From Eubacteriaceae bacterium (GTDB lineage: Bacteria > Bacillota > Clostridia > Eubacteriales > Anaerofustaceae): DNA of 38,835 nt. Positions 33,073 through 37,964 of the stretch are shown piece by piece. How positions within the stretch are numbered: position 1 is the stretch's first letter; every line of letters starts with the position of its first letter. Under the pieces are notes generated by a model. The model searched no databases and was not told the DNA's origin. It was given only the letters and a program-made list of their open reading frames with translations. The stretch lies in NCBI GenBank assembly GCA_017531485.1, contig JAFXKY010000049.1, positions 1 to 38,835 of the forward strand. Reading direction: 5' to 3'. Position numbers and translations under genes: made by a program.

Positions 33073-33101
33073 TTGACTTATTTTGCCGACAGATGTAAAA
33101 T
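33073..33101 (+). promoter_or_regulatory. Promoter of the nitrogenase-like operon
   Basis: TTGACT (33073-33078), 17-bp spacer, TAAAAT (33096-33101). It is a sigma-A type, not the -24/-12 type of many nif promoters. The leader is only about 55 bases and shows no riboswitch. An imperfect palindrome centred on AACGTT (about 33040-33055) lies upstream of the -35 box and may be a regulator site. Confidence 0.7.
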
Positions 33102-33164: not shown

Positions 33165-33911
33165 ATGAAAAAGATTGCTATTTACGGCAAAGGCGGCATC
33201 GGCAAATCCACCACCGTATCAAACCTTTCTGCGGCTCTCGTAAAAATGGGATATACGGTAATGCAGATCGGCTGTGACCCGAAAGCGGACTCAACAAGAA
33301 ACCTCACCGGCGGAGTAAGGATACCGACAGTCCTCGAACTCATGCGCGATAAAGGTGATGTGGAACTTGAAGACATCGTTTTCAAAAGCGACAGCGGAGT
33401 TTACTGCGTCGAATCAGGCGGCCCGATCCCGGGAGTAGGATGCGCAGGAAGAGGCATCATTACAGCTTTCGAAAAACTCGAAGAACTTGATGCTTATGAG
33501 ATCTATAAACCGGACGTTATTTTTTATGACGTTCTCGGCGACGTCGTTTGCGGCGGATTCGCCATGCCTATAAGAGGCGGATATGCAGATGATGTATGCA
33601 TCGTAACAAGCGGAGAAATGATGGCACTTTATGCCGCAACAAACATCTCCCATGCAGTAAAAAGTTTCGGAAAACGCGGATACGCTTCCCTCAAAGGTCT
33701 TATCTTCAACGCGAAGAATTTCGAGGGTGAAGATGAGCTCGTTGAAAAAGCTGCCGAAGAGATCGGAACTCAGGTAATCAAGAAGATCCCCCGCGATCAG
33801 ACTATCCAGGAAGCAGAAGCCCTCGGAAAGACAGTCGTTGAAGCTTTCCCCGAAAGTGACATCGCAAAGCTTTACATGGATCTCGCAAAAATGCTCGTAG
33901 AGGGTGAATAA
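33165..33911 (+). CDS. NifH-like ATP-dependent reductase (nitrogenase-like iron protein)
   Basis: The 248-residue product has the full NifH layout: P-loop [11 protein letters not shown] (residues 7-17), [10 protein letters not shown] switch segment, and both cluster ligands, Cys93 (GVGCAGRG) and Cys129 ([12 protein letters not shown]), which in a homodimer bind one [4Fe-4S]. Arg96, the equivalent of the ADP-ribosylation site of NifH, is also kept. It is somewhat shorter than NifH (about 275-290), missing the C-terminal extension. It should pass electrons, two ATP each, from ferredoxin to the D/K-like partner encoded downstream. AAGGAGG lies five to seven bases before the ATG; nifD-like begins one base after the stop. 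Homologues BchL, BchX, CfbC and MarH use the same chemistry, so this protein alone does not show the substrate. Confidence 0.95.
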
Positions 33912-33912
33912 G

Positions 33913-35220
33913 ATGAGCGAACATCTTAAACACCTAAAAAAACTCTCCACGATCCGCTCAGGCAAAAATATCAAATTCCTCACCCCTGCCGTATATTCCG
34001 GCGGATGGTGCCCGATGAGGGTTGCCTGCAATATCGTGGAAGACATAGAAGGAGTTTCCTACCTTATGGTAGGAATGCCGGAATGTGCTACGCACTCCCG
34101 CGGAATGAATTCCCTTCCGGAAGGCCCCAACGGAGAACTCAGATGGCTTTATGTTCTTGACGCAAACGAGGTTATCTTCGGTTGCAGAAACGGTGTAATA
34201 GAGGCGCTGAAAGAAATGGATGCCGCAGGCGCAAAGGCGATACTCATGATCGCAACCTGTGTAACTGACCTCATCGGTGAAGACTTCGAAGGCATCATCA
34301 GCGAAGTTCAGCCGAAGATGAACGCAAGACTTTCTTACGTAACCCTCGGTCAGTTCAAAAATTTCGGAAGCGGAATCGGAACATGGAAAGTTGCTGAAGC
34401 GCTCGGAGAATTCATGCTCCCGAGAGAGAAGAAAGAAAAAGTCGCGAACCTTCTGTTCCTCGAACCGTGGAGAACGAAAGGATCCCCCCTTGAACTGCCG
34501 CTTATCATAGATGCTCTCGAAAGAAGAGGCGTCACCGTCAGAAAGATCGCCGCAGGAGCAACCCTTGAAGATTATATGGATGCGCCGGATGCTGCGCTCA
34601 ATCTCGTAACGACTTCATACACCCAGCCTCTCGCTGCGAAGATGCAGGACCGTTTCGGCACGCCTTACAGCCCGCTTCACAACGCGTTCACCGTTGAAGA
34701 CATCGACAAGGTATATAAGGAAATCGAAGATATTCTCGGCATCTCCCTCGAAGGCGAATTTGACGGATGGAGAAAGAAAGCCGTTGAGCTGGAAGAAAGG
34801 GCGAAGAAGGAGCTGGGCGGAAAGACATTCGTCATGATAACGGAAGTTGACATGCCTGTTGCGCTGACGAAATATCTCGTCGGTTTCGGAATGAAGCCGC
34901 TTCTCATCAATGTTGACGACATTCATAACGAAGACATCGGTTTTGCAAAGGAAATGAAAGCTGAGGGAATCGATCCTCCTGCTTGCAGAATAATGTATAT
35001 CGAAAAGGACCTCGAGATCGTCAGGGAACTTCAGCCGGACATCGTCTTCGGATATGTTGACAAACCAGTAACCGACATCAAACTCGCAGAGGAAATGGGT
35101 GACTTCTTCGGAATCACAGGTTACGAAAGAACAGTAGGAATATTATCACGCATCTTTACCGTTCTGGAAACGGGCAAGATGGGAGAAAGGTTGGATATCT
35201 ATGGGCCTGCACCGCTTTAA
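33913..35220 (+). CDS. NifD-like catalytic subunit of a nitrogenase-like reductase
   Basis: The 435-residue product belongs to the nitrogenase component 1 family but is about 50 residues shorter than NifD. Three conserved cysteines, Cys33 (GGWCPM), Cys58 (MPECATHS) and Cys116 (TCVTDLIGED), fall where NifD binds its P-cluster. The segment after LNLV (residues 229-232) has Thr-Thr where NifD has the His-Cys that holds FeMo-cofactor, and no counterpart of the C-terminal cofactor histidine region is visible. So it should bind a simple Fe-S cluster and an organic or tetrapyrrole-like substrate, not FeMo-co; that is inference. Start chosen at the ATG with GAGGG eight bases upstream; a GTG three codons earlier overlaps nifH-like. 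It overlaps the K-like gene by 20 bases. Confidence 0.92.
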   Translation: MSEHLKHLKKLSTIRSGKNIKFLTPAVYSGGWCPMRVACNIVEDIEGVSYLMVGMPECATHSRGMNSLPEGPNGELRWLYVLDANEVIFGCRNGVIEALKEMDAAGAKAILMIATCVTDLIGEDFEGIISEVQPKMNARLSYVTLGQFKNFGSGIGTWKVAEALGEFMLPREKKEKVANLLFLEPWRTKGSPLELPLIIDALERRGVTVRKIAAGATLEDYMDAPDAALNLVTTSYTQPLAAKMQDRFGTPYSPLHNAFTVEDIDKVYKEIEDILGISLEGEFDGWRKKAVELEERAKKELGGKTFVMITEVDMPVALTKYLVGFGMKPLLINVDDIHNEDIGFAKEMKAEGIDPPACRIMYIEKDLEIVRELQPDIVFGYVDKPVTDIKLAEEMGDFFGITGYERTVGILSRIFTVLETGKMGERLDIYGPAPL

Positions 35221-36439
35221 ACCCATGCCCTCTGGAAGAATGGGCATTTTCTGGACACTCGCAAGCATAAGCGAAGCCGCAGTAGTTGAATTCGGCTGTA
35301 TGGGACATAATATCTACAGCGGCGGCAACCTGCGTCGCGGCGGTATCTATGAAGGATACGGCGCTCCGCTTTACACTACATACATCGACGAGACCGACAT
35401 CGCCATGGGAGATACTTCCCGCCTTAAAGCGACGATCGCTCAGGTAATCAAAAACGACAAACCAAAGGCAATTTTCCTTCAGCCGTCGGCTGTACCGGAA
35501 GTTGTGGGAACGGATATGTACGCAGTGGCGAATGAACTGCAGTATGACTTTCCCGATACTCCCCTCATCCCCCTCGGTCACGGAAGCTTTGCCATTTCTC
35601 AGCAAAAAGGCGTTGAAGAGGCTTTAAAAGCTCTCGCTAAAGCTCTCCCGGAAGAAAGGGAAAAGACGGAAAAACCGACATACAACATCATCGGTTCATG
35701 CCCGGATCTTTTCAACTTCGCTTCCGACAGCCTTGAGATCCAGAGGCTCATGAAGGGCGCATTTGACATGGACATCGTCTGCGACTTTTCTTCAAAATGC
35801 AGCGTAACCGACATCAGAAACATGCCCTCCGCACACATCAACCTCGTCATCCGCCGGGAAGGCATCCCTGCGGCAAAATACCTTCAGAAGAAGTTCGGAA
35901 CGCCGTATATCTACGCGCGTCCCTACGGAATAAAAGGCACGACGAAGTGGCTTTGCGATATCGGCGAAATCCTCGGAACGGAACCGTGCAAGGAATTTAT
36001 CGATTTCGAAGAAAATCTGTGGAAACTGCAGTATGAGCCGGGAAGATATACTCTCGAAAACAATCAGTGGCAGTATCCCGACGAAGCGGTCCTTACTATC
36101 GGCGGACATTATGACGTAGTAAAAGGAATCCTCACTTTCGCAACGACGGAACTTCCAATCTCCAAAGGCACAGCATGGTGCAACTGCCCGGAAATGGGTG
36201 ATGAAGAAATTCCGTATTTCTCAGAAAAGGAATGGATCCCCGTCGTTCAGAACCACGACAAAGGATATCTCATGTTCAGCGGCGAAGCTCTCAAATGGGC
36301 AGGAAAGAACACACAGCTCCAGATCGCAAACCCGGACATCGCATACCGTATGCACCCGTATGACCCACCGTTTGTGGGATACCGTGGTGCGATAAATATC
36401 GTGAATAAATTACTTAATGAGTATGTGCTGAAGCACTAA
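35201..36439 (+). CDS. NifK-like catalytic subunit of a nitrogenase-like reductase
   Basis: The 412-residue product is in the nitrogenase component 1 family, beta-subunit side, and much shorter than NifK (about 520). Of the three P-cluster cysteines of NifK only the middle one remains, Cys33 (VEFGCMGHN); the first position has Pro8-Met9 and the third has Ser96-Ala97 in a segment (VPEVVGTDM) that otherwise matches NifK. With three cysteines from the D-like partner this gives four ligands for one [4Fe-4S] cluster at the interface. Other family stretches are TYIDETDIAMGDTSRLKATI and GGHYDVVKGI. The start lies inside the end of the D-like gene, so the two are translated in step. The last 60 residues are rich in Asn, Pro and Tyr (PDIAYRMHPYDPPFVGYRGA). 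A strong terminator follows. Confidence 0.9.
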   Translation: MGLHRFKPMPSGRMGIFWTLASISEAAVVEFGCMGHNIYSGGNLRRGGIYEGYGAPLYTTYIDETDIAMGDTSRLKATIAQVIKNDKPKAIFLQPSAVPEVVGTDMYAVANELQYDFPDTPLIPLGHGSFAISQQKGVEEALKALAKALPEEREKTEKPTYNIIGSCPDLFNFASDSLEIQRLMKGAFDMDIVCDFSSKCSVTDIRNMPSAHINLVIRREGIPAAKYLQKKFGTPYIYARPYGIKGTTKWLCDIGEILGTEPCKEFIDFEENLWKLQYEPGRYTLENNQWQYPDEAVLTIGGHYDVVKGILTFATTELPISKGTAWCNCPEMGDEEIPYFSEKEWIPVVQNHDKGYLMFSGEALKWAGKNTQLQIANPDIAYRMHPYDPPFVGYRGAINIVNKLLNEYVLKH

Positions 36440-36443
36440 AATT

Positions 36444-36467
36444 ATCCCCTCACAATAGTGAGGGGAT
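36444..36467 (+). terminator. Terminator of the nitrogenase-like operon
   Basis: 10-bp perfect stem ATCCCCTCAC/GTGAGGGGAT with an AATA loop, then TTTTTTC; four bases after the K-like stop codon. It closes a three-gene unit. A short stem at 36484-36496 may end the opposing RHH gene. Confidence 0.9.
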
Positions 36468-36494: not shown

Positions 36495-36689
36495 CTATTC
36501 TTCCACCTTTACTATTTCAACCGCAGCTTCCAGAAGCATATTGATGAGTTCGTTTCTTGAACGGTTTGTCTTTTCGGAGAGTTCGTCAAGCTTTTCGATC
36601 AGCTCGTCTTTCATGCGTACAGAAACCACTTTGTGTCCGTCATCGCCGCGACGGGGATTTTTCTTCTTGATTCTGATTTCTTCTGACAT
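36495..36689 (-). CDS. Ribbon-helix-helix (CopG/Arc-type) regulator
   Basis: The 64-residue product has a basic N-terminal arm (IRIKKKNPRRGDD) then a ribbon KVVSVRMKDELIEKL and two helices (DELIEKLDELSEKTN, SRNELINMLLEAAVEIV), the RHH fold in which dimers insert the strand into the major groove. GAGGTG lies six bases before the ATG. It faces a disrupted small ORF across an AT-rich region full of TTATAGT repeats (36751-36797), probable binding sites. RHH proteins often control themselves plus a partner gene (antitoxin, plasmid copy or transporter); the partner here appears lost to an IS insertion. Confidence 0.88.
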   Translation of the reverse strand: MSEEIRIKKKNPRRGDDGHKVVSVRMKDELIEKLDELSEKTNRSRNELINMLLEAAVEIVKVEE

Positions 36690-36728
36690 GGCCCACCTCT
36701 GAAAAATTATTTACAATATCATTTTACC

Positions 36729-36929: not shown

Positions 36930-37878
36930 ATGGCGAACAAAAAATACAGTGATGAGTTAAAACTGCAGGTAGTATAGGAATATCTTGCAGGTGGTAGCCC
37001 GACAGAGTTGGCAAGAAAATATGGAATCAGGGATGTGGACAGAATCAGATTCCGGAAGAAGCAGTATATCACCTACGGCTGCTTTCCCGATGGAAGAGGG
37101 AAAGGTTCTCCCGGAAGACCGGAACATAACAAGCTTGATGAAACGAAGAAGGATGCAGTTCTTTCTGTTTACAATGAGAAGAAAAGCAGAGGCAGGAGAC
37201 AGATAAAGATGATGCTGTCGACAAAATTCGACATACATATGAGTTTAGGGAGCGTACACAGATATATGAAGATATTAAATTTGAGGTCAATAATGAAGAA
37301 AATGCCTGAAAATAAGGGGAAAGATGATATAAAAAAAAGAAGAAGTACAAAATCCGAAGACATTCGCCAATGATTTAAACCGTGATTTTTGTACTTCAAA
37401 ACCGGGCCATAAATGTCTCACAGATATCACATACATCCCATGTACGGACGGAACATTGTTTCTGTCGTGCATAAAGGATATGCTTGACAAGTCTATTATA
37501 GCATATTATATGTCAAAAAGGAATGATACAGAGCTGGTAATGAAAACTTTATACATGGCGGAGCATCTGATAGGTGAAAACACGATATTGCATTCGGATC
37601 AGGGGAGTCAGTATGTATCGAAGGAGTATCAGGCGTATCTGAAAGAGAAAGGTATAACGGGAAGTATGTCAAGGAAAGGGACTCCGTACGACAATTCGCC
37701 GATGGAATCAGTCTTTTCGCTACTGAAGAATGAGGAACTTAAACTGAATGGACTTATGACGATGAAGCAGACAGAGAGAGTCGTCGAAGAATATATAAGA
37801 TATTACAATGAAGAAAGACCTCAGTGGGGATTAAAAAAGCAGACTCCTCACTCTGTTCGGAGTCTGCTTTTGGCTTAG
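36930..37878 (+). pseudogene. IS3-family transposase (orfA/orfB), broken
   Basis: It opens with AGGAGG and ATG. Codon 16 is an in-frame TAG (36975-36977) in the orfA helix-turn-helix (LQVV stop EYLAGGSPTELARKYGI). Soon after, GSPGRP leads straight into the orfB HTH_21 segment (VYNEKKSRGRRQIK), so the usual coiled coil is lost. Near the A8 run at 37331-37338 the frame shifts by +1; in the new frame the catalytic triad is intact: TDITYI, HSDQGSQY and the Glu of PMESVFSLLKNE. The shift is in the wrong direction for the family's programmed -1 frameshift, so it is damage. Confidence 0.85.
37835..37871 (+). terminator. Terminator inside the 3' end of the IS transposase
   Basis: 13-bp perfect stem AAAAGCAGACTCC/GGAGTCTGCTTTT with an 11-base loop, overlapping the last codons of orfB. 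Confidence 0.65.
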
Positions 37879-37964
37879 GCTTTTTTATTGTCCGTTTTTC
37901 TTGACACGGAGTAGCAAAAGCGTGTTGTTCTTAACGGAGAAATACAAAAACCGAGTAGGATAAG

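Follow-up and report, generated by a model that had tools for sequence, protein, structure and literature searches.

The nflHDK genes of a gut anaerobe encode a nitrogenase-like enzyme that, judged by its sequences, belongs not to the chlorophyllide reductases (COR) but to a separate lineage of group IV-type nitrogenase-like enzymes that is linked to iron uptake. Our overall explanation, which we consider on balance probable though far from assured, is a two-component reductase of this lineage carrying one [4Fe-4S] cluster at each D/K interface. The operon lies on contig JAFXKY010000049.1 of a Eubacteriaceae bacterium (assembly GCA_017531485.1); the window refers to the whole 38,835-nucleotide stretch that was analysed, and the genome from which it comes is 2.17 Mb in size and 95% complete.

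Three open reading frames on the forward strand make up a compact three-gene operon. The first, nflH (33165..33911), encodes a NifH-like ATP-dependent reductase subunit (Fer4_NifH; PF00142, E 1.6e-95). It is followed by nflD (33913..35220), whose assignment as the D-like catalytic subunit is based on PF00148 (nitrogenase component 1), the tree and pN/pS, and by nflK (35201..36439), the K-like catalytic subunit, which matches PF00148 over residues 14–272 and shares 20 nt with nflD. All three reading frames are intact and show purifying selection, with pN/pS values against a same-genus relative (L008) of 0.13 for H, 0.20 for D and 0.21 for K. Upstream of the operon on the same strand is a sigma-70-like promoter (TTGACT-17-TAAAAT, 33073..33101), a consensus match only, at 10/12 positions, and a strong intrinsic terminator, also on the forward strand (36444..36467), marks its end. 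An Rfam search returned tRNA only and no riboswitch. Closely 3′ of the operon are remnants of an IS3-family transposase (36960–37900), interrupted by a frameshift and by a stop codon in frame, and between this element and the HDK terminator we noted a small minus-strand ribbon-helix-helix-like ORF (36505–36700, start MSEEIRIKKKNPRRGDDGHKVVSVRMKDELIEKLDELSEKTNRSRNELINMLLEAAVEIVKVEE, read by eye).

Profile searches left H and K far below the COR cut-offs. The NCBIfam score of H falls between the NifH and CfbC models and under all equivalog cut-offs (200 bits against a BchX cut-off of 331), K reaches 66 bits against a BchZ cut-off of 529, and among single proteins in the PDB, BchB matches K best. 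In a maximum-likelihood tree with Nif, Vnf and Bch references (BchY/BchZ taken from two Roseobacteraceae plasmids, BchN/BchB from a third), all D homologues group together (93/98), as do all K homologues (95/83), and both clades lie outside BchY/BchN and BchZ/BchB; the Bch branches are very long, which makes their own exact placement uncertain. Similarly, a tree of H with BchL and BchX contained very long branches. The D and K proteins of the window fall inside an iron-uptake-linked lineage comprising clades A, A′, A″ and B, and K did so again in a second tree. Since linkage to the FecBCD transporter is common in this lineage and not strict, membership rests on the tree.

The link to iron uptake was seen in gene neighbourhoods, gathered from the family, the class, the phylum and annotated plasmids: in clades A′, A″ and B alike, FecBCD shares an operon with HDK. 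Clade-B loci often have the transporter genes set between those of the enzyme (H-FecB-FecC-FecD-D-K), and in several of them a flavodoxin gene follows K. Three loci (L023, L024 and L051) combine NEAT-domain proteins, a sortase, FecBCD and HDK, two of them together with flavodoxin. The heme-binding lipoprotein model IsdE was the top NCBIfam match for 5/5 clade-B binding proteins tested, and the protein of L024 was the sole one above the cut-off (358 bits versus 299). IsdE-like genes were found in only 14/291 genomes of the class, at E values of up to 1e-60. Also, Fur-box-like sites, defined as 1–2 mismatches to TGATAATNATTATCA, with 0–2% of simple shuffles equally good, precede the clade-B operons of L023, L052, L054 and L055 and the transporter of Sporomusa. 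A URO-D gene downstream in L011 was set aside, as none was seen next to HDK at the other loci. Decayed copies were found as well: L049 retains just AraC and K, L060 has pieces of K, and the D gene of L021 contains an in-frame TGA.

These clade-B operons would fit an anaerobic heme reductase, with every member of the family, also that of the window, reducing heme at its macrocycle or at its iron for O2-free iron release, in place of IsdG-type heme oxygenases. That DPOR, COR and CfbCD reduce tetrapyrroles (PMC7242693) also counts in favour of such a role. However, the clade of the window lacks neighbours of this kind, the binding proteins of clade A′ weakly resemble siderophore binders, and clades A/A′ differ from B in their K motif and are split from it by a long branch, so that the substrate may have changed between them. 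We regard heme reduction across the whole family as possible, although rather less probable than not.

In the window itself HDK stands alone, with no transporter gene next to it, and a Fur-box scan of its promoter found nothing above chance; the link to iron import would thus hold for the window by ancestry only. The operon is mostly without transporter linkage throughout the window's clade, the exception being L008, in which FecBCD and a NIR/SIR-ferredoxin cluster lie divergently upstream of HDK. The genome of the window has an apparent orthologue of this L008 FecBCD cluster, located on a different contig (C44; L072 16518–19405, L073) and including a Crp/Fnr-like regulator.

A sequence-only reading of this DNA had drawn attention to three D cysteines spaced 25 and 58 residues apart, to a single K cysteine, and to the resemblance of this pattern to COR. 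The codons are located in the D reading frame as described: Cys33 (TGC, 34009..34011), Cys58 (TGT, 34084..34086) and Cys116 (TGT, 34258..34260), all on the forward strand, are predicted cluster ligands in the columns of NifD Cys62, Cys88 and Cys154, respectively, and of the first, second and third BchY cysteines. The BchY intervals given there are likewise right, with exactly 25/58 in BchY of Sulfitobacter and Thalassococcus; the BchN interval is 25/61. The three D cysteines together with K Cys33 are invariant in the eight close homologues aligned, most of which come from anaerobes of gut and rumen, and the D triad is retained across the wider family with the exception of a Treponema outlier. 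The interval of 25 is present in every D homologue counted and that of 58 in about half, including the distant clade-B members L024 and L026, which argues that the intervals mark homologous columns and not COR identity. The outlier, on a Treponema saccharophilum plasmid (L071 6637–9059), has a distant HDK set adjoining FecBCD, in which the canonical K column is Cys and the first D cysteine is missing, which gives another arrangement of ligands within the same genomic setting.

Two additional D cysteines that the earlier reading did not mention, Cys39 and Cys358, are also invariant. Cys39 is restricted to clade A, and a C-terminal WCxC pair in K (residues 326–329) is found in clade A and partly in A′. 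These extra conserved cysteines (K WCxC, D Cys39 and D Cys358) may form a further site for a metal or for redox chemistry.

On the K side, BchZ does supply a cysteine near residue 35, as the earlier reading states (Cys35), but its column is occupied in the window by His36 (35306..35308, forward strand) and not by Cys33 (TGT, 35297..35299, forward strand). The motifs end in VIDGPVGC35 in BchZ, LHAPQGD36 in BchB and VEFGCMGH36 in K, and a MAFFT alignment with all references sets His36 on the column of BchZ Cys35, BchB Asp36 and NifK Cys95, with Cys33 falling on a Pro/Ser position three residues earlier. Cys33 had been described as the only survivor of the NifK cysteines; it is the sole cysteine in the P-cluster region of K, yet it lies three residues off the Cys95 column. 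Comparing 13 ungapped offsets scored with BLOSUM62, we found offset 0, which places His36 on the ligand column, to be best against all six kinds of K-type reference (+1.5 for the His36 register versus −10.7 for the Cys33 register against BchZ; +8.9 versus −9.8 against NifK). In clade-B relatives offset 0 was ahead by about 38–49 units against BchZ, BchB and NifK. The shift of −3, which brings Cys33 onto the column, was the second-best register and scored slightly better against the D-type references BchY, NifE and VnfD; the displacement of Cys33 from the column is thus strongly, not perfectly, supported.

Variation among relatives points in the same direction. Across the 29 K homologues, 13 have Cys33 with His36, two have Ser33 with His36, 13 have Pro with Thr, and one has Ala with Thr. 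Within the branch of the window, His36 is present in 15/15 K proteins and Cys33 in 13/15. The two Ser33 proteins (L077 and L078) branch as sister to the clade of the window, with support of 98/93 and 100/99; they keep His36, and their D partners keep all three cysteines. The earlier reading had named homologues without Cys33 within the clade as grounds for its own refutation, and these proteins are such a case. His36 is therefore preferred over Cys33 as the ligand from K, and Cys33 would be a derived extra. In clade B both K positions are replaced by Pro and Thr, so a K-side Cys or His appears dispensable in parts of the family, and the cluster there would have to be bound in some other way, for instance by Thr or by solvent.

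An all-cysteine, COR-like 3 + 1 [4Fe-4S] cluster can still be envisaged if the K loop is re-threaded to put Cys33 in the place of BchZ Cys35, leaving His36 another role. Cysteine is far commoner than histidine as a [4Fe-4S] ligand, Cys33 is kept in most K proteins of the branch and has no rival cysteine in the P-cluster region, and the register that it requires is the runner-up. The ungapped register, the sister branch with Ser33 and the position of D and K outside the COR clade all stand against it, and we consider this arrangement unlikely. The cluster is likely a single interface [4Fe-4S] cluster with three cysteines and His36 (or Cys33) as ligands, which from these comparisons would be nearer to the three cysteines and one aspartate of DPOR than to COR. 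The proposal of a COR-like cluster rather than a P-cluster is supported as to one small interface cluster and no P-cluster, as indicated by the retained D triad, the ligand columns, the absence of NifEN and the lack of a NifB above cut-off. The more specific claim of 3 + 1 cysteines as in COR is not supported, given the register of Cys33, its replacement by Ser in the sister branch, the loss of both Cys33 and His36 in the wider family, the separate D and K clades and the low BchX and BchZ scores.

Structure prediction with seven close sequences as input gave models with pLDDT of 46 for K and 60 for D, with cluster regions mostly below 50 (in the D model, residues 1–99 and 102–126). A fold search with this low-confidence D model returned the nitrogenase-component-1 fold only, at a TM of about 0.4–0.5.

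Operons of clades A′ and A″ are organised as AraC-FecB-FecC-FecC-FecD-H-D-K with variations (L022, L050, L063 of Sporomusa termitida, L077 and L078), and that of L048 is rearranged. Their AraC regulators and FecCD permeases would suit enzymes that, in clades A and A′, use ATP to reduce ferric siderophores of very low potential such as catecholates. Binding proteins of clade A′ look siderophore-like and not heme-like, through weak matches, and an enterobactin-binding model is the best, well under its cut-off, for the FecB proteins of L022 and Sporomusa. These matches are sub-threshold, the clade of the window has no direct link, and ordinary ferric-siderophore reductases have no need of such a complex; we therefore find this substrate doubtful.

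The columns of NifK Cys70 and Cys153 hold Pro/Met and Ser in K, those of NifD Cys275 and His442 are neither Cys nor His in the D alignment, D and K are the only two PF00148 proteins in the genome, and neither NifEN nor a NifB above cut-off was found in it. From these sequence features a P-cluster or a FeMo-co/L-cluster in nflDK appears very unlikely. A diverged nitrogenase or NifEN-like cofactor scaffold, to which the low-scoring matches of D and K to NifE and NifD models might point, is already mostly refuted by the incomplete six-cysteine set, the missing cofactor ligands and the lack of NifEN and of a NifB above cut-off, and we judge it highly improbable. Sulfur salvage of the MarHDK type was rejected as well, since its ligand sets differ and the operons showed no sulfur genes.

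We propose that enzymes of this lineage are ATP-driven reductases of an iron chelate or of heme. In the mechanism that we favour, the H2 dimer would donate low-potential electrons, one at a time and at the expense of ATP, to a D2K2 assembly, in which each D/K interface would hold one [4Fe-4S] cluster bound by D Cys33, Cys58 and Cys116 and by the K loop 32–36, most likely through His36, with Cys33 as the alternative. If there is neither a P-cluster nor a FeMo-co/L-cluster, electrons would pass, as they do in DPOR and COR, from the cluster straight to a substrate bound where nitrogenase has its FeMo-co. The single cluster is proposed by analogy with DPOR (three cysteines and an aspartate) and COR (three cysteines and a fourth one). 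DPOR and CfbCD are described as containing only [Fe4S4] clusters and tetrapyrrole sites (PMC12552129), and a [4Fe-4S] cluster in BchYZ has been reported by EPR (PMC7242693). With cousins of the lineage residing in heme and iron uptake operons, the substrate of the enzyme may be an iron-binding molecule instead of N2. The ancestral substrate was probably something imported by the FecBCD transporter; in the NEAT/IsdE branch (clade B) heme would be the best candidate, its macrocycle or its iron being reduced, and a different iron chelate or tetrapyrrole would be expected in the branch closer to the window. In the clade of the window, now mostly uncoupled from the transporter genes, the enzyme could act on an iron chelate or a tetrapyrrole within the cell. 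Gene content, conserved residues, register, phylogeny and operon linkage are direct observations; the cluster and its ligands, the D2K2 assembly and the class of substrate are inferred.

Comparison with known systems brings out both the kinship and the distinctness of nflHDK. With COR (BchXYZ) it shares the D intervals, a NifH-like donor, the expectation of a single cluster and the absence of cofactor ligands, but it differs in having His36 in the BchZ Cys35 column, in its separate clade, in a C-terminal part of K unlike that of BchZ, and in a genome without further PF00148 proteins such as BchNB. DPOR (BchLNB) resembles it in combining three D cysteines with a non-cysteine residue on the K column, although His replaces BchB Asp36, the BchN interval differs, and D and K fall outside the BchN and BchB clades. 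Unlike nitrogenases (NifHDK/Vnf/Anf), it has neither the six P-cluster cysteines nor the NifD Cys275/His442 ligands nor nifENB. Methylthio-alkane reductase MarHDK is likewise a non-diazotrophic nitrogenase-like HDK system; it carries a six-cysteine P-cluster and an [Fe8S9C] cluster (PMC12552129), and HDK of the window has neither ligand set. The isethionate enzyme IsrHDK (PMC11423573) is similar in belonging to group IV, in lacking cofactor ligands and in offering four candidate ligands for one cluster, but its cysteines are distributed the other way round from those of the window, with three in K and a single one in D.

Also among the closest known systems, and similar to clade B, are the nitrogenase-like NifHEN-type proteins of Clostridium botulinum and Alkaliphilus oremlandii described by Dos Santos et al. 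2012 (PMC3464626), with three D cysteines, none in K, and adjoining NifH and ABC ATPase genes. For related clades these authors suggested a DPOR-like non-cysteine ligand; they also suggested that metal transport is coupled to cofactor assembly. The proteins resemble clade B in the three D cysteines, in lacking the canonical K cysteine and in the NifH and ABC transporter genes; unlike them, the clade of the window has K Cys33/His36, D Cys39 and K WCxC, and is mostly unlinked from a transporter.

Other anaerobic heme routes are known, through HmuW and HmuS. An open-access search, outside which most subscription papers lie, found no literature on a nitrogenase-like enzyme linked to heme, so that both the C/D/H/T series in the ligand column and the connection to heme would, as far as can be seen, be new. 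One tentative extension, which we think more likely wrong than right, is that the lineage is an oxygen-independent counterpart of IsdG and heme oxygenase, performing an ATP-driven NifH-NifDK-type reduction of imported heme or ferric chelate, with a cluster of three cysteines and one histidine in the window's branch and the member in the window re-purposed for an internal substrate.

For annotation, the window carries a warning, cysteine counts being insufficient for a nifHDK or COR label. The ligand column, which reads Cys in Nif and BchZ, Asp in BchB, His in the window and Thr in clade B, provides a natural series in which to ask how ligation tunes cluster potential in the nitrogenase superfamily. 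Finally, the role of nitrogenase-like pairs beside ABC transporters was left open in 2012, and the link to IsdE-like transporters, NEAT proteins, sortase and Fur-box-like sites offers a testable answer, in which these enzymes would serve the anaerobic reduction of heme or of iron chelates.
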